Source: a virus
Direction: 5' to 3' (one strand)
IMG/VR virus record: IMGVR_UViG_3300030385_002649
Location: 248,001-312,000 of that record
DNA: 64,000 bases
Below, in pieces: positions 5,960-13,206 of the stretch. Position 1 is the first letter of the stretch, and every line of letters begins with the position of its first letter. A program made the position numbers and the translations under genes. A model generated the notes under the pieces. That model had not been told where the DNA came from. It saw only the letters and a program-made list of their open reading frames with translations, and did not search any database.

Positions 5960-6197
5960 ACACCTACTTTCCACTTTAAAGAAAGACTTCCCAGATGGCG
6001 AAGGCGGAGTGGACGTTCGGGTGGCCGCCAAAACAATTTTCGGGATTGTGGACGATTCTCGAATTAGATCTATGCAGTCGGTAGTAGATTTCCCGACGTG
6101 CAATATACACTCTTATTTGGTGTGGGATTATGTTGGTCTCCGACTCACGTCGGTATTTGAGAAAAATGGCCGAATCAATTGTCGAAGTAGCAGTTAA
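5928..6197 (+). CDS. Hypothetical protein
   Basis: 89 residues. AGAGAAG lies just before the ATG at 5928. It overlaps the upstream gene by 32 bases and the polymerase start by 32 bases. No recognisable motif. The compact overlap suggests coupling to translation of the polymerase N-terminal gene. Confidence 0.45.
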   Translation: MTYLKPKLAAEHLLSTLKKDFPDGEGGVDVRVAAKTIFGIVDDSRIRSMQSVVDFPTCNIHSYLVWDYVGLRLTSVFEKNGRINCRSSS

Positions 6198-7695
6198 CCT
6201 TACTCAAGCCGAGCGAAAAGCCGCCGACGTTTCCTATCCAGGACCACAGGAGTTTGTGCACTTGCACAATCATACCCTGTTTAGTACACTAGACGGAATC
6301 GCAACGCCAGACGAATACTTCGGAGCGTGCGCCGAATTAGGTCACCCCGCTTTTTCTATTACCGACCACGGTAGCATGGCTGCGATTCCAGACGCCTATT
6401 GGGCCGCCAAAAAGCATAAGACCAAGTTCATTGCCGGGTGTGAGATCTACTTCAACGATTTTCACCAAGAACTTGAAGAGAAGCAAGCGAACCCAGACTG
6501 GAAGTTAGGAGCACTCAAAGCCCCTAAAGCTGCCACCTCTGTCGATTATGACATGATGGTAGGAAACGAAGAATGGGGCAAGTATAGGCGCAATCGACAT
6601 CTTACGGTTATGGCTATGAATATGGGAGGATATAGAAATCTCATCCACATGACTAGTGAAGCCTGGGAAATTGGTTTTTATTACAAACCAAGAGTCTGGT
6701 TCGACCAAATCAAGAAATATAACAAGGGCCTCATCATCTTGTCCGGATGCTTGAATGGTCCTGTTTGTCACGCTCTACGAGAAGCCGCAAAATGGGCTAA
6801 GATCTCTCGTGGCAAGCTTAAAGCTGATAAATTCGGAAGGCCAATCCACATCAACTCATACGACGCTAAAAAACGACAGCAGCATTATATGGACGAAGCT
6901 CACATGTGGGTCAAGAAATTTAGGGATCTCTTAGGAGACCGCTTCTATCTAGAATTGCAAATGCCGGGTAAGGAAATCCCGTTTGGCAAAGAAGCCTTCG
7001 CTCTGATCTGTCAAATGGCAAAGAAATATGACATCGATGCGGTCGTTGCTAACGATTGTCACTTCACTCACCGTGCTGATTTTAAAGTGCAAAAATGCAT
7101 GATGGCGGTGGGCCAGGGCGTCCAAATCGACGATCCGAACCTGTTCCACGTAGACTCCGACGAGCAATTTTTTAAGAGTAGAGCACAGTTGAGAAAAACA
7201 TTTTTCGAAGGAGGATATGACAAGTATATCACGCCCGAAGAGTTCGAACAATGCCTTCAAAACACAGTCGAGCTATCAAAGCGGTGTGAAACATTCGACC
7301 CCGACTTGAACCCGAAGCTCCCATCCATCCCAGATGCTGAACCTAAATTGAAGAAGCTAGTCATCGAGGCGTTAAAGAGCACTGGTTTGATGCATTCTGA
7401 TAAGAGATATATGGTCGATGGTAAAATGGTGACCCACAAAGAACAAGCCGCTATCGAATTGAAGCGTTATTGTGAAAAGGGCTTCGCTTCATACTTCTTG
7501 ATCATCAAGGATTTGATCGACTACTCTAAAACCAACCAATGGGACGTCGGACCTGGCCGTGGTAGCGCTGGAGGATCCTTAGTTTGTTATCTTCTTGGTA
7601 TTCATTCACTCGATCCTTTAAAGTGGGGTCTTAGTTCAGTTCGCTTTATGGGCGACAGCCGTGGTGGAGATATGCTCCGCGTATCTATGGATTAG
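6166..7695 (+). CDS. dnaE: DNA polymerase III alpha, N-terminal part (PHP domain)
   Basis: About 509 residues from the ATG at 6166. The PHP domain has VHLHNHTLFSTLDG (30-43), ITDHG (65-69), AGCEIYF and ANDCHF, matching metal-binding blocks of bacterial DnaE. GPGRGSAGGSLVCYLLG (about 462) is the start of the palm, equivalent to the GRGSAAGSLVAY of bacterial enzymes. The protein then stops shortly after SRGGDMLRVSM, before the catalytic aspartates. Those lie in the separate gene at 8559. The two products would have to associate to form a polymerase. The retained PHP metal residues make a phosphoesterase or proofreading role possible. Confidence 0.85.
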   Translation: MAESIVEVAVNLTQAERKAADVSYPGPQEFVHLHNHTLFSTLDGIATPDEYFGACAELGHPAFSITDHGSMAAIPDAYWAAKKHKTKFIAGCEIYFNDFHQELEEKQANPDWKLGALKAPKAATSVDYDMMVGNEEWGKYRRNRHLTVMAMNMGGYRNLIHMTSEAWEIGFYYKPRVWFDQIKKYNKGLIILSGCLNGPVCHALREAAKWAKISRGKLKADKFGRPIHINSYDAKKRQQHYMDEAHMWVKKFRDLLGDRFYLELQMPGKEIPFGKEAFALICQMAKKYDIDAVVANDCHFTHRADFKVQKCMMAVGQGVQIDDPNLFHVDSDEQFFKSRAQLRKTFFEGGYDKYITPEEFEQCLQNTVELSKRCETFDPDLNPKLPSIPDAEPKLKKLVIEALKSTGLMHSDKRYMVDGKMVTHKEQAAIELKRYCEKGFASYFLIIKDLIDYSKTNQWDVGPGRGSAGGSLVCYLLGIHSLDPLKWGLSSVRFMGDSRGGDMLRVSMD

Positions 7696-8154
7696 ATGAG
7701 CTATTCACGATTGTTGATAAAATTCCAAGAGGCTTTAGATTCTTACGCCTTATTGTCCCAATTTTCCGATCAGGATATGGAGAACCTTGGGTTTTCTGAT
7801 CAGATTAAGCTGGTCCTCTATAAATGGCCTGATATCGCTTCTTCTGCCCTCAACCTTATAATGCGCATGGAAGGGGAAGCGCATGAAGACGTTGTTTCCA
7901 ACGCTTGGCTTAGGTTGGAAAGGGATTTAGACGATACTATAGTACAGCCGGTCGCGGCGTTCTATGAGGGTTTAGCGGAAAAAACAAAACAAAGCATGGG
8001 AGGAGTTCCCATCAATGCAGTGATAAAACCGGAGGTTATACTTTCTTTAGATGCTATTAGCGCTAAGAAAGTTTATGTTGAATGTATTAACCATTTATTT
8101 GATGTTTTAGAAGCGGTAACTAAAACCAAATACCCAAGGATACAAACATCATGA
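7696..8154 (+). CDS. Hypothetical protein between the two polymerase genes
   Basis: 152 residues. The ATG directly follows the TAG of the polymerase N-terminal gene (TAGATG). The sequence is mostly helical and acidic (for example QFSDQDMENLGFSDQ) and contains no endonuclease or intein motif. It overlaps the next gene by four bases. It belongs to the 863-base segment that separates the two polymerase parts. Confidence 0.6.
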   Translation: MSYSRLLIKFQEALDSYALLSQFSDQDMENLGFSDQIKLVLYKWPDIASSALNLIMRMEGEAHEDVVSNAWLRLERDLDDTIVQPVAAFYEGLAEKTKQSMGGVPINAVIKPEVILSLDAISAKKVYVECINHLFDVLEAVTKTKYPRIQTS

Positions 8155-8546
8155 TCGAAATCGTTATAAATGGATACGGTAAAGTTTCCAAAAAAGCCAA
8201 TTTTGGTGTTTTGTTGAAGGATGATAGGGGCCAAACCCACCAAAGGATCGTCCCTTTGGAAGTGAAATCATCCTATGCGGCTGAGCTTCTAGGTATTAAG
8301 TATGGCTTGTTGACACTTCATGGCCGTGACTATGATATTCTTGTTAAGACCTCTTCCCCACACGTTTCTAAGTCGTTGACTAAGAAGGATGGGGAGTGGC
8401 CTAAGAGCAGGTCTAAGAGCATGGAGTTGTTGGACGAGATTAGAACTCTCGCTGAAGAGTTTGGAACTTTTGAGTGCGTTTTTGATAAGAGTAGTCCAGA
8501 GATGGATTACGTTAAAGAACTCGCTAGGAAACCAATTCGTTCTTAG
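8151..8546 (+). CDS. RNase H-like protein, possibly catalytically degenerate
   Basis: 131 residues. Order of features resembles the RNase HI fold: a first strand VINGYGKVSKKANFGVL, a helix SSYAAELLGIKYGLLTL carrying the family Glu, then a strand DYDILVKTSSP where the family usually has T-D-S. The second catalytic Asp thus appears replaced by Ser, and the first strand shows no clear Asp, so activity is doubtful. It is the last gene before the polymerase C-terminal half and may help processing of primers or simply bind nucleic acid. Confidence 0.45.
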   Translation: MIEIVINGYGKVSKKANFGVLLKDDRGQTHQRIVPLEVKSSYAAELLGIKYGLLTLHGRDYDILVKTSSPHVSKSLTKKDGEWPKSRSKSMELLDEIRTLAEEFGTFECVFDKSSPEMDYVKELARKPIRS

Positions 8547-8558
8547 TATCTGAACCGT

Positions 8559-11500
8559 ATGGTTCATGTTAAAGATTGGGGCACGCTTAAGAAGCTGACC
8601 GCTAAATTGCTAGCGGTCAAGAAGCTGCGCGAGCCCTATATAAGCAAATTGAAGTTCGAGCTTAAAGAGATCGACAAGCAGGGCGCGAACCGCTACTGGC
8701 TAGATCTATTTAATAGCCGAGAAAAATTCAATCACAACAAAAACGGTCTAGTCTTGCCGTACATCTTGGGCTTAACGAAGATTGATCCAATCGACAGGGG
8801 TATTCCACACAAGGTCGAATACCATCCTGACTTCCCTGATATTGATATCGACTTCTTACCAGAAGCTAGAGAGCACGTCAAGAAGTATGCTAAAAAACAA
8901 TATGGCGACGATTTCGTTTGTACTGTTGGCATGTGGATTAGGTATAAGACCAAGTTGGCGCTCCAAGACGCCGCTACCGCGCTTGGCGTCAACCGTGGAG
9001 AAGTCATTGCGGTTTGTAAGCACCTTCCTGAAGAATTTGACACAATGCCTTTCGATCAAGCTTATGAAGAATTCGAGAATTTCAAGATCTTCGCTGATGA
9101 AAACCCAGAGCTTGTAAGACTAGCTTATGGCATGACTGGAAAGATTAAAGCTCAGAGTAAGCACGCTGGCGGATTGATCATTTCTAGCGTCCCGATTAGA
9201 GATCACGTCCCTCTGACTTATTCTGGCAAGAAAGGTGATAAACAGTGGACCTCCGAGTGGACTGAAGGCATGGCCGACTCTCAGTTGTCGAAGTTCGGTC
9301 TTGTAAAGTTCGACATTCTCGGGCTCATTAATATCGCTTATATTTGGAACTGCAAGAAGTTGGTCGCTAAAAACCACGGAGTGAAAATCGACTTCGAGGA
9401 TATCGATCCCGAAGATGACAGGGCGGGCTGGGCAGAATACGCTGATGGCCGAGTAGAAAAAATCCTGCTCAACGATCCTGATACGCTAGAGGCCGCTGAC
9501 AACCTAAAATTAGCTTCTATCTTCCAGTTCGACACTGATTTCCAACAGAGTGTTGTAGAAAAAGGTGGCGTCAGATCTTTCATGGACTTGGTAATCTATA
9601 CTAGTCTTGGTAGACCTGGTCCGCTTCCTATGATTGATGTCTATATTGGAAACCGAGACGACCAATTAGAAGGGTGGAACGACGTTTTACATCCTATCAT
9701 GAAGGATATCCTAAAAGAAACTAAGGGCGTACTAACATTCCAAGAACAGCTTCTTAGAACGTGGACCGAACTCTGTGGCTTCACAATGCCTGAAGCTGAG
9801 TCTGCGCAGAAGGCAGTTAAAAAGAAGAGGATCGAAATCCTGGATAAGATTGGTCCTAAGGTTATCGAGGGTGCAGCTGGGCTGATCGGCCAGGATGAGG
9901 CTGAAGCTCTCTGGGATAAGATGGTCAGCTTTGGTCGTTACTGCTTCAACAAATGTCTTGCTTCTGACACCATAATTATAGACCCGCTTACCAATGAGTC
10001 TATGACGATTGAAGAATTATATCAATCTAAAAAATCGTTTAATTTGTTATCGTATGATGGTAATAAACCTTTCATAGATGAAGTGGTTGATGTTTATTAT
10101 AATGGAAAACAAGAAGTTTTCGAAATAGAATTTAGCCATGGCATTAAACAAACGGTGACCATTGGTCATAAATTTATGAATGAATTTGGAGAGATGGAAG
10201 AAGTTTCTTCATTATTAGAGTCTGGTCATGCTATCAAATATATAAGAGATGGAGTGATTAATGTACAAGAAAGTAAACGATCAAATAGAACTGAAAATTG
10301 TCGAGCTTTATCAAAACAGGTTGACTTACAATCAAATTTTGAAAGAGATAGAAATAAAATTGAGCCATGGGACGATAACTCGAGTGATAAAAAAACACGG
10401 CGTGAAGAGGAAATTCTTAACCAAAGCATGCAACACAGTGGATCACCATTATTTCGAGAATATAAATTCTTCGGAGAAAGCCTATTGGTTGGGCATGTTG
10501 ATAGCAGATGGTTATATTCACGAGGCAAGAGGATATGTGAGCTTGCAACTTCATCACAAAGACCAAAGCTTAGTAAAGAAATTTGGAGAAGATTTGAAGT
10601 CGCCAAGAAAAATATTGACTTGTCGAAAAGGAGATTTTACACAAATGCGGAGTACGGTAAGCAGCAAGAAGATGATTGCGGATTTGAAACGTCTTGGTGT
10701 CATACAAGGGAAGTCTACCAAGGAAACTATTCCGGACGTTCCATTCATGTCACACCTATTAAGGGGGTTGATGGATGGGGACGGATGTATTGTGGTCAAT
10801 TCGAAAGGGTACCCAATGATAAGACTTGGGTCGAGTTTTGCTTGTTTAGAGAAAGTGAGAACCATTTTAGTTTCCGAATGTGGGGTGAGGGCTTCAAAGA
10901 TTACGGAATATCAAAACAATTTTTGTGCTATTTGCTGGACTGGTTTGTCTCAGACCCAGGCGATACTGAAGTTTTTGTATCAAGATGCCACAAGATTTCT
11001 GCTAAGGAAAAAGCAAATGGCCGATGCAATATTGTCAGCATTAGAAATCTCGGAGTTAAAAAGACTTATTCCCCAGAGATGACGTCCGATCATCATAATT
11101 ATCTTACAAAACCGCAGAATGGAGAAGTGGTTCATGCTAATAGCCACGCAGTCGCGTATATCATGGTCGCTTATAGGTGTTTGTGGTTGAAGACTTATTA
11201 TCCTGCTGAATGGTGGGCTTCAGTCTTGAGCCATTGCCCTGCCCACAAGTTCGTACGTTATATGGGCGCTGCAAGAACTGACAAAATCGCCTTTGGCACG
11301 CTAGACGTGGACAACCTGACCAAAGACTTCACAGTCCAAAAAGGGAGCATTATTCCTGGTCTATCGTCTATCAAAGGAATCGGAGACGAAACCGCCCAAA
11401 ACTTGGAGGACGAAAGTGCTAAAGGTACGTTCGAGGGGATTGAAGAGTTCATCGAACGGTGTGGCAAGAGTAAGGCTAACCTAGAGAGGCTGGTCAAGCT

Positions 11501-12344
11501 AGGCGCTTTCGACAACATCAACCCTAATAGGAAAGCTCTCTGGATGTGGTACCTATACAAATACGCCACTGGGAAAGAAATCACCGAGCTTAGAAGACAG
11601 ATTGATTATTGCTATACTTGGTCGCCCCTCGCCGTTCAAGAAGAACGGGATAGACAGAAGATTGAGTATAAGAGACAATATCAAAACAGAAAAATTCCTA
11701 AGCGAATCACAACTTGGATTCCGGCTGCCCCTTCTGTTACGCCGCGCGTGTTCAATCCTGATGTGGAGCTTACGAAAGAAGATATTCGGCTTGGCAAAAA
11801 GTTTAAGCTTGATTATGAACAAGTTGTCGCGTTGTTCCCAACGGATTTTAAGTTGGCAGAGCGGCTGGAAGCCGAGCACGATTACTTGGGCTTTTATTGG
11901 AGTTCTCCACTCGACATGTTTCAACACTCTGACAACACTACTATTGAATTCGCAAAGACTTGCGGACTTATTGAATGTGTTATCGAGGAGAAATTTGTTA
12001 GGCAGGGAACAAACGGAGAATATTGCATTCTAAACGTGAACGATGGTCAAGCGACTGCTCGTGTTAACGTTTGGGGCAATGAGGTGCACCTTAACGATCC
12101 TGAAGTTCTTCAGCCTGGAACAGGTGTCCAAATGGAGGTCATTTGGAAGGATCAATATAGGAGCTTTAGTTTGAAGGCACGGTCGATCATTATACCGTTG
12201 CCCTTCAAAGAAGAGGACGAAGACGACACATACTTTAAAGAGTTGTCTAAGGCCACCACTTCAGGTTCTGATGAACTTGACGAATTAAAAGAAATGTTGG
12301 AGAATATCGATGATCTTGAAAGAGATTTCAATGAAGCAGAGTGA
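8559..12344 (+). CDS. dnaE: DNA polymerase III alpha, catalytic part, with intein
   Basis: 1261-residue precursor. Catalytic Asp94 and Asp96 lie in FPDIDIDF and the third, Asp252, in LVKFDILGL, as in bacterial DnaE. VLTFQEQLLRT and FGRYCFNK / SHAVAYIMVAYR are fingers blocks. After the intein follow a helix-hairpin-helix region (IPGLSSIKGIGDETAQNL) and an OB-like domain (CVIEEKFVRQGTNGEYCILN) near the C-terminus. Intein residues 466-861 interrupt the polymerase at FNK/SHA. Without the intein the mature part is about 865 residues. No strong Shine-Dalgarno is seen before the ATG at 8559. The N-terminal PHP part is the separate gene ending at 7695. Confidence 0.9.
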   Translation: MVHVKDWGTLKKLTAKLLAVKKLREPYISKLKFELKEIDKQGANRYWLDLFNSREKFNHNKNGLVLPYILGLTKIDPIDRGIPHKVEYHPDFPDIDIDFLPEAREHVKKYAKKQYGDDFVCTVGMWIRYKTKLALQDAATALGVNRGEVIAVCKHLPEEFDTMPFDQAYEEFENFKIFADENPELVRLAYGMTGKIKAQSKHAGGLIISSVPIRDHVPLTYSGKKGDKQWTSEWTEGMADSQLSKFGLVKFDILGLINIAYIWNCKKLVAKNHGVKIDFEDIDPEDDRAGWAEYADGRVEKILLNDPDTLEAADNLKLASIFQFDTDFQQSVVEKGGVRSFMDLVIYTSLGRPGPLPMIDVYIGNRDDQLEGWNDVLHPIMKDILKETKGVLTFQEQLLRTWTELCGFTMPEAESAQKAVKKKRIEILDKIGPKVIEGAAGLIGQDEAEALWDKMVSFGRYCFNKCLASDTIIIDPLTNESMTIEELYQSKKSFNLLSYDGNKPFIDEVVDVYYNGKQEVFEIEFSHGIKQTVTIGHKFMNEFGEMEEVSSLLESGHAIKYIRDGVINVQESKRSNRTENCRALSKQVDLQSNFERDRNKIEPWDDNSSDKKTRREEEILNQSMQHSGSPLFREYKFFGESLLVGHVDSRWLYSRGKRICELATSSQRPKLSKEIWRRFEVAKKNIDLSKRRFYTNAEYGKQQEDDCGFETSWCHTREVYQGNYSGRSIHVTPIKGVDGWGRMYCGQFERVPNDKTWVEFCLFRESENHFSFRMWGEGFKDYGISKQFLCYLLDWFVSDPGDTEVFVSRCHKISAKEKANGRCNIVSIRNLGVKKTYSPEMTSDHHNYLTKPQNGEVVHANSHAVAYIMVAYRCLWLKTYYPAEWWASVLSHCPAHKFVRYMGAARTDKIAFGTLDVDNLTKDFTVQKGSIIPGLSSIKGIGDETAQNLEDESAKGTFEGIEEFIERCGKSKANLERLVKLGAFDNINPNRKALWMWYLYKYATGKEITELRRQIDYCYTWSPLAVQEERDRQKIEYKRQYQNRKIPKRITTWIPAAPSVTPRVFNPDVELTKEDIRLGKKFKLDYEQVVALFPTDFKLAERLEAEHDYLGFYWSSPLDMFQHSDNTTIEFAKTCGLIECVIEEKFVRQGTNGEYCILNVNDGQATARVNVWGNEVHLNDPEVLQPGTGVQMEVIWKDQYRSFSLKARSIIIPLPFKEEDEDDTYFKELSKATTSGSDELDELKEMLENIDDLERDFNEAE
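9954..11141 (+). mobile_element. Intein in the polymerase catalytic gene, 396 codons
   Basis: The splicing element begins at Cys (CLASDTIIIDP, block A) and includes block B around KQTVTIGHKF. It ends with block F/G sequence MTSDHHNYL...GEVVHAN, followed by Ser+1 of the extein. The extein join FNK-SHAVAY restores the conserved DnaE FNKSHA sequence, which fixes both borders. The residue before the terminal Asn is Ala rather than the usual His. Splicing blocks occupy only about 100 N-terminal and 35 C-terminal codons. The central part in the polymerase frame (about residues 568-841) has no intein-like content, and the endonuclease gene lies there in another frame. Confidence 0.85.
10261..11082 (+). 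CDS. LAGLIDADG homing endonuclease nested in the intein in another frame
   Basis: 273 residues in the +1 frame relative to the polymerase/intein frame. Two LAGLIDADG helices are present: WLGMLIADGY (76-85) and RGLMDGDGC (168-176), each with its catalytic Asp. An N-terminal segment LTYNQILKEIEIK...SHGTITRVI looks like a helix-turn-helix. It has its own signals: GGAG at 10251-10254, six bases before the ATG. It ends with TGA at 11080-11082, inside codons for the C-terminal splicing block. It would cleave intein-less polymerase alleles to drive homing. It occupies the slot between blocks B and F where an in-frame endonuclease would normally sit. Confidence 0.88.
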   Translation: MYKKVNDQIELKIVELYQNRLTYNQILKEIEIKLSHGTITRVIKKHGVKRKFLTKACNTVDHHYFENINSSEKAYWLGMLIADGYIHEARGYVSLQLHHKDQSLVKKFGEDLKSPRKILTCRKGDFTQMRSTVSSKKMIADLKRLGVIQGKSTKETIPDVPFMSHLLRGLMDGDGCIVVNSKGYPMIRLGSSFACLEKVRTILVSECGVRASKITEYQNNFCAICWTGLSQTQAILKFLYQDATRFLLRKKQMADAILSALEISELKRLIPQR

Positions 12345-12864
12345 ACTTGATTCGTGGAGAATGCCTGGCATGGCTCCTATCGTCTCAATCGAAAAGCTTT
12401 CAAAAGAAGTAAAGTCGAACTATATCGTCGCCACGTCTGGCGGATATGACCCAATCCATCCGGGGCATATTAGTTGCATGCTTGAAGCTAGCAAACTAAA
12501 CAAGGTCTTGGTTGTGATTGTAAACGGTGACTGGTTCTTGAAGAATAAAAAGGGTAAAGCCTTCCAAGACTTGAAGGCCAGGTGTCAAATTGTCGCATCT
12601 ATTGCGTGTGTGGATTATGTGGTTCCATTCCCTATTGAAGGAGATAAGTCCGTCAGCCAAGCTATTGAGCAAATGCGCCCATTCATTTTCGCTAAGGGAG
12701 GGGATCGCACTGACGCTCAGAACATTGCGGAATGGGAGACCTGCGAAGCAGTTGGCACGCGGATTGTGACTGGAGTCGGCCATCCAAAGCACTGGAGCAG
12801 TTCTGATTTCCTGAAGGATTGGGGCGAATTTGTCAAAAAGGGCTTCTTAGCAGGCAACCGATAA
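12331..12864 (+). CDS. Cytidylyltransferase-like nucleotidyltransferase
   Basis: 177 residues from the ATG at 12331, whose codons overlap the polymerase stop; AAAGAGA precedes it. SGGYDPIHPGH (36-46) is the HxGH nucleotide-binding signature of the cytidylyltransferase family, and VIVNGDWFLKNKKG plus a C-terminal HWSSSDFL correspond to later blocks of the HldE/TagD-like group. The expected reaction is transfer of a nucleotidyl group to a phosphorylated small molecule. The substrate is unknown. With the glycosyltransferases at 29673-32713 and the dehydratase at 53149 it may serve sugar or polyol activation. Confidence 0.75.
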   Translation: MKQSELDSWRMPGMAPIVSIEKLSKEVKSNYIVATSGGYDPIHPGHISCMLEASKLNKVLVVIVNGDWFLKNKKGKAFQDLKARCQIVASIACVDYVVPFPIEGDKSVSQAIEQMRPFIFAKGGDRTDAQNIAEWETCEAVGTRIVTGVGHPKHWSSSDFLKDWGEFVKKGFLAGNR

Positions 12865-12868
12865 CTAT

Positions 12869-12916
12869 TGAAGTCCATAGGAGTACCTAGAATTTAGGAG
12901 GCTCCTATGGACTTCA
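12869..12916 (+). promoter_or_regulatory. Hairpin enclosing ribosome site and start codon
   Basis: A perfect 15-base inverted repeat: TGAAGTCCATAGGAG at 12869-12883 and CTCCTATGGACTTCA at 12902-12916. The 18-base loop can pair further (CCTA 12886-12889 with TAGG 12895-12898) and contains the Shine-Dalgarno AGGAGG. The start codon at 12907-12909 lies in the right arm. As RNA this would hide both ribosome site and ATG, so translation of the next gene probably needs unfolding by a protein, a ribosome or temperature. Confidence 0.65.
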
Positions 12917-13206
12917 CTGTTGTTAAAACCGCGCTTGAAACCGCTGGTTTATCTGTGTATAAAATGGACTTTCCGATCACCCTGGTCGGAGATACCGAAG
13001 AAACTACAATACCATTAGCGGCTAAATGCTTCCGCGTCAATAGTATAGAAAAAATTGTAGAATTCTTTGAGCACCATAAAGAAAATGGCATAAAAACTGT
13101 ATACCTTTATAAAGTATTGGCTCCTGATGACAACGATAAACTTTATAGAGTCAGAGCGGCCTGGCATTTGGATGCTAACGGTCCTAATGATACATATGTG
13201 CTATAA
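12907..13206 (+). CDS. Hypothetical protein under a start-codon hairpin
   Basis: 99 residues. Alternating strand and helix (MDFTVVKTALETAGLSVY; IEKIVEFFEHHKENG) without a known motif. AGGAGG ends five bases before the ATG, an excellent site that is nevertheless inside a stable hairpin. The stop overlaps the next start (TAATG). Confidence 0.6.
   Translation: MDFTVVKTALETAGLSVYKMDFPITLVGDTEETTIPLAAKCFRVNSIEKIVEFFEHHKENGIKTVYLYKVLAPDDNDKLYRVRAAWHLDANGPNDTYVL

Follow-up and report, generated by a model that had tools for sequence, protein, structure and literature searches.

We analysed a 64-kb window (bases 248,001-312,000) of a 370,804-bp virus record from a giant phage, and describe here a homing endonuclease gene nested out of frame inside an intein. 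The intein interrupts the gene for the C-terminal part of DnaE, the alpha subunit of DNA polymerase III (PolIII alpha). The DnaE/intein frame contains zero stop codons across 9954-11141 and belongs to a single uninterrupted open reading frame (ORF) at 8559-12344; the third frame of the same interval contains 54 stops. The features of the locus are as follows.

8559-12344, + strand: DnaE (PolIII alpha) C-terminal gene, 1261 amino acids (aa) including the intein (ORF; Pfam DNA_pol3_alpha and finger domains; phrog_405)
9954-11141, + strand: contiguous intein of 396 aa in the DnaE frame, site FNK/SHA (TIGR01445; empty sites in relatives; PDB profile matches; AlphaFold2 Hint fold on the flanks)
9954-10256, + strand: IntN, the N-terminal splicing part, about 100 aa (alignment with the second-lineage intein L103 and the split inteins L108, L113, L164 and L155, all introduced below)
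10251-10254, + strand: GGAG, a Shine-Dalgarno-like sequence 6 nt 5' of the endonuclease ATG (sequence)
10255-10257, + strand: TGA stop in the endonuclease frame, just 5' of the ATG (sequence)
10261-11082, + strand: nested LAGLIDADG homing endonuclease gene, 273 aa, in the +1 frame relative to the intein, with the Asp83 and Asp172 motifs intact (ORF; Pfam and phrog matches; alignment; AlphaFold2)
10261-11007, + strand: overlap in which the intein frame is stop-free and its residues are otherwise unconstrained (stop test; two-lineage comparison)
11008-11082, + strand: truly dual-coding segment, in which the endonuclease ends and IntC begins (two-lineage comparison)
11022-11141, + strand: IntC, the C-terminal splicing part, TYSPEM...HNY and terminal HAN/S (sequence alignment)

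The N-terminal part of the intein matches TIGR01445 at 6.9e-6, better than the curated cut-off, and a profile built from the window intein and its relatives finds DnaE inteins of solved structure (best E=4.7e-10). We identified the splicing motifs Cys1, block B (TIGH), block F (TYSPEM...HNY), the terminal Asn and Ser+1, equivalents of which are kept in L103. The FNK/SHA junction is uninterrupted in most relatives. In the AlphaFold2 model the flanks are confident, with a predicted local distance difference test score (pLDDT) of about 77-92 for residues 1-90 and 85-90 for residues 361-380, and Foldseek matches their models to PDB structures of RecA and DnaE inteins (E 5e-7 to 2e-5), indicating a Hint fold. 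The middle of the intein has pLDDT <50 for most of residues 98-355, with some stretches at 50-65. An original prediction, made from the sequence of the window, had described the residues encoded in this frame between about 10258 and 11020 as random-looking, and the low-confidence middle between well-modelled flanks agrees with those boundaries.

The same prediction placed a clean two-motif LAGLIDADG endonuclease of 273 residues, with its own GGAG and ATG, out of frame within 9954-11141. Both the coordinates and the assignment are correct. The ORF at 10261-11082 matches phrog_4645 ‘endonuclease’ (E=8e-51) and Pfam LAGLIDADG_3 (1.3e-7), and Asp83 and Asp172 are invariant across the endonuclease family alignment. 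The AlphaFold2 model has a pLDDT of 91.3 and its closest solved fold is I-AniI; searching solved structures with its sequence gave no meaningful match. The TGA at 10255-10257 closes the endonuclease frame ahead of its ATG, so the gene cannot be a continuation of IntN. Its N-terminus forms a helical extension resembling DNA-binding elements, which is common to free-standing and intron-borne relatives. The relatives that we examined are free-standing or lie within group I introns, and none of them sits in frame in an intein. Where family endonucleases have long in-frame neighbours, these are helix-turn-helix-like repeats or methyltransferase-like fusions; in four cases (L027, L086, L133 and L136) the endonuclease runs in frame into a C-terminal part resembling a DNA methyltransferase.

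Within the overlap, a T at the third position of an endonuclease codon creates a stop in the intein frame if the next codon begins with AA, AG or GA. None of the 83 such risk codons is preceded by a third-position T, compared with 69 of the 189 other codons (Fisher p=1.3e-13), and no such T bias is found in the other ORFs of the window (26% vs 29%). The original prediction had argued from a uniform-codon estimate that the frame is held open by selection; we replaced that estimate with a test, including controls, in which synonymous codons were shuffled within each gene. The window endonuclease gene has 0 intein-frame stops against 17.1±2.8 expected, and none of its 25,000 shuffles had <6. In ten free-standing relatives the equivalent frame contains 34-54 stops, about as many as the shuffles predict, and the intein-frame stops of six split-intein loci with an intervening endonuclease gene are likewise near expectation. 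Since stop avoidance is absent from both of these groups, it tracks the contiguous state of the intein. We conclude that the intein frame is kept open by selection.

A second case with zero stops, L022 (L022/L103-L105), was found by scanning viral contigs. Three IMG/VR contigs contain its sequence; over 11.4 kb they agree to within one base, and we count these three assemblies as one lineage. It carries the same DnaE with the same insertion site, and its endonuclease lies in the same +1 frame as that of the window, so that neither lineage has the in-frame endonuclease of a canonical intein. Its endonuclease gene has 0 intein-frame stops against 11.2±2.4 expected from synonymous shuffles, and the ribosome-binding sequence before its ATG, GGAGGAGAATATG, is stronger than the GGAG of the window. 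Identity between the lineages is 53% for the endonuclease, 54% for the intein splicing parts and 51% for the N-extein. The same layout in a diverged lineage, together with the agreement among the three contigs, disposes of the concern that base errors near 10255 and 11080 had displaced an endonuclease that is really in frame. The comparison with related phages that had been proposed as a check thus revealed the same layout in a second lineage, and we found no relative with an endonuclease fused in frame at the FNK/SHA site. Roughly 100 viral and 80 genome loci of the family yielded no third nested lineage. One locus singled out by its stop count, L175, was rejected as a nested case, as it is a GC-rich split intein whose stop number is what chance predicts. 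Relatives emerged only with alignment queries; whole-protein and single-sequence scans of the viral and genome collections gave none, and no DNA-level relatives were found in the phage collection.

Comparison of the two lineages also indicates how much of the overlap encodes two proteins. We simulated the intein-frame identity expected from both endonuclease proteins and the no-stop rule (2000 simulations). Over endonuclease residues 20-250 the observed identity is 50/228 against 52.5±5.4 expected; over residues 250-273 it is 13/23 against 5.2±1.8, a value reached in 0/2000 simulations. Third-position divergence is about 0.6 in the bulk of the overlap and 0.21 at residues 250-273. On this basis, only the last ~23 endonuclease codons serve two proteins and the remainder is merely readable. 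Dual coding had been predicted where the endonuclease end meets block F, and it is indeed confined to about these 23 codons. Elsewhere in the overlap, the absence of stops is the only detectable constraint on the intein frame.

Given these analyses, we consider it very probable that a free-standing endonuclease gene entered the intein out of frame and is internally initiated while the precursor still splices, giving a mobile intein in which two genes overlap. The ribosome translating DnaE would read through the 396 intein codons, and the two intein ends would together form a Hint splicing domain, which would cut itself out and ligate the polymerase parts. The middle, roughly 258 residues long, would be a loop without meaning of its own, placed where inteins usually carry the endonuclease. 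A second ribosome on the same mRNA may start at the GGAG/ATG (10251-10263) and produce a free LAGLIDADG endonuclease from the +1 frame; this internal start is supported because ribosome-binding-like sequences precede the ATG in both lineages. The free endonuclease would cut intein-less dnaE alleles, into which the whole element would then be copied. Its gene probably descends from a free-standing or intron-borne family.

Several points weigh against this interpretation. In both lineages the penultimate intein position, where His is usual, is occupied by Ala; just two independent nested lineages were found, and both come from metagenomic assemblies. The target site of the endonuclease is deduced from empty alleles alone. 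The nesting, stop avoidance, 3' dual coding, patchy distribution and second lineage can be read from the sequences themselves; splicing, internal initiation, cleavage of the empty dnaE site and homing are what we infer from them.

The original prediction offered as an alternative that two compensating frameshifts moved an ancestral in-frame endonuclease into the +1 frame, where a new start evolved. Ordinary inteins do carry an in-frame endonuclease at this position, as do the terminase intein of the same phage and L151, a DnaE relative with an intein at another site. We nevertheless find this improbable, as no examined family member lies in frame in an intein, and the relatives, free-standing or in group I introns, share the same N-terminal extension. 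Six more loci at the same dnaE site also have separate +1-frame endonuclease genes, which belong to two families. Given where these relatives reside, we consider it more likely that a free-standing gene was inserted out of frame than that an in-frame domain was frameshifted. A somewhat less remote alternative, which we still regard as unlikely, is that the endonuclease no longer homes and is kept as a nuclease for another purpose. Against it, the Asp residues of the two LAGLIDADG motifs are intact, as is the predicted fold, and the element is patchy among close relatives.

Two other explanations are very hard to reconcile with the data. The intein frame could be open by chance or codon bias in an intein that is dead or not translated through, in keeping with the lack of detectable amino-acid constraint on its middle residues; this is contradicted by the shuffles (0/25,000 with <6 stops), by the zero count in the second lineage and by the lack of such a bias in the other window ORFs and in the split-intein and free-standing relatives. 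Alternatively, as relatives of the endonuclease occur in group I introns, the insert could be an RNA intron carrying the endonuclease instead of an intein. However, no group I intron or other RNA matched Rfam at E<=1 in 8000-13000, the intein splicing blocks are conserved on both sides at the protein level, and an intron would have no need to avoid stops in the polymerase frame.

Other loci display different states of the same site. In three phage loci (L108, L113 and L164), a split intein at FNK/SHA has a separate endonuclease gene between its halves, in the +1 frame relative to IntN; this endonuclease is of another family (phrog_559/phrog_3339) with weak Vsr similarity. Three Acidobacteriota loci (L175, L177 and L256) also have a split intein at FNK/SHA, with an intervening LAGLIDADG gene that is +1 to IntN and of the same broad family as the window endonuclease. 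The tree does not support a direct sister relationship between the phage and Acidobacteriota endonucleases, so this site may have been invaded on more than one occasion. In L155, the halves of a split DnaE intein at this site are on opposite strands about 4.3 kb apart and would need trans-splicing. The extein-intein halves are separate ORFs in all seven of these loci, but not in the window. In the extein tree, the four closest relatives of the window (58-60% identity) and the closest relative of L103 (67%) have empty sites. The element looks mobile because its closest polymerase relatives have the site empty, and its distribution among close relatives looks patchy, as expected of a mobile element.

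Fractured genes, reportedly described by Dassa et al. in 2009, are split inteins with an intervening endonuclease gene. We tentatively suggest, as an idea that is plausible if short of probable, that the contiguous nested intein is an intermediate toward split inteins and fractured genes. As long as a single long precursor is required, as in the window, selection would remove stops from the intein frame. After IntC had acquired a start of its own, this constraint would lapse and the frame close (L175, L177, L256, L108, L113 and L164), and the split halves may later separate (L155).

DnaE of the window is encoded by two genes, at 6130-7695 (PHP domain and start of the palm) and 8559-12344 (the remainder). 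The break between them contains two small genes and no intein. Many relatives also have a separate N-terminal DnaE gene, and the two-gene arrangement appears to be characteristic of this phage group. In L107, L110, L111 and L117 the polymerase match is broken by about 270-1150 bp near DnaE-C residues 78-95, which suggests another insertion or split site. DnaE of L157 is broken by about 2.8 kb near DnaE-C residue 362, and L161 has a divergent DnaE with a split intein at a neighbouring Y/CFN site and a 362-aa ORF between the halves. The phage itself encodes other inteins: a terminase-like gene (G000:C1 about 165700-169300) contains two, one short and the other with an in-frame LAGLIDADG domain, and a UvrD-like helicase (G000:C1 about 136900-138000) also has an intein.

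The locus bears on the origin of split inteins and on the joining of separate endonuclease genes to splicing elements. At this one DnaE site the empty, contiguous nested, split with separate endonuclease, and separated-halves states are found side by side. The stop-avoidance test needs only sequence to tell contiguous and split inteins apart, and could be applied to any intein collection. The locus is also a clean example of overlapping genes in which one frame needs to be readable, not meaningful.

Like fractured genes, the window locus has a separate endonuclease gene between intein halves, the arrangement found in L108, L113, L164 and the three Acidobacteriota loci. It differs in that its intein is contiguous, its frame is never closed and IntC lies inside one uninterrupted ORF. 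With an ordinary mobile intein, such as that in the terminase of this phage (G000:C1:167163-168314), it shares the Hint domain and an endonuclease at the usual insertion point; its endonuclease, however, is in another frame and presumably initiated separately, never forming part of the precursor. The ShiLan insertion has an open host frame and a homing-type HNH endonuclease in another frame, and it is patchy and apparently mobile; it is without intein or intron splicing domains, begins with GTG and has no detectable ribosome-binding sequence (PMC11855218). The window likewise combines an out-of-frame endonuclease with an open host frame, but has a real intein, a LAGLIDADG endonuclease, a GGAG/ATG start and measured stop avoidance. 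Beside its statement on overlapping frames, the paper on ShiLan refers to Gosselin et al. 2025 (bioRxiv, 'Actinobacteriophage Inteins ... Non-Canonical Architecture') and Gorbalenya 1998 ('Non-canonical inteins') (PMC11855218). In the literature that we searched, we found no report of an out-of-frame endonuclease nested in a contiguous intein, nor of the stop avoidance shown here; these two works may already describe such an intein. Finally, the free-standing and group-I-intron endonucleases of phrog_4645, for example that in the recA intron of Staphylococcus phages, have the same protein family and domain order as the nested endonuclease, but they are intronic or intergenic, and the ten tested have the 34-54 stops noted above in the frame that the window keeps open.
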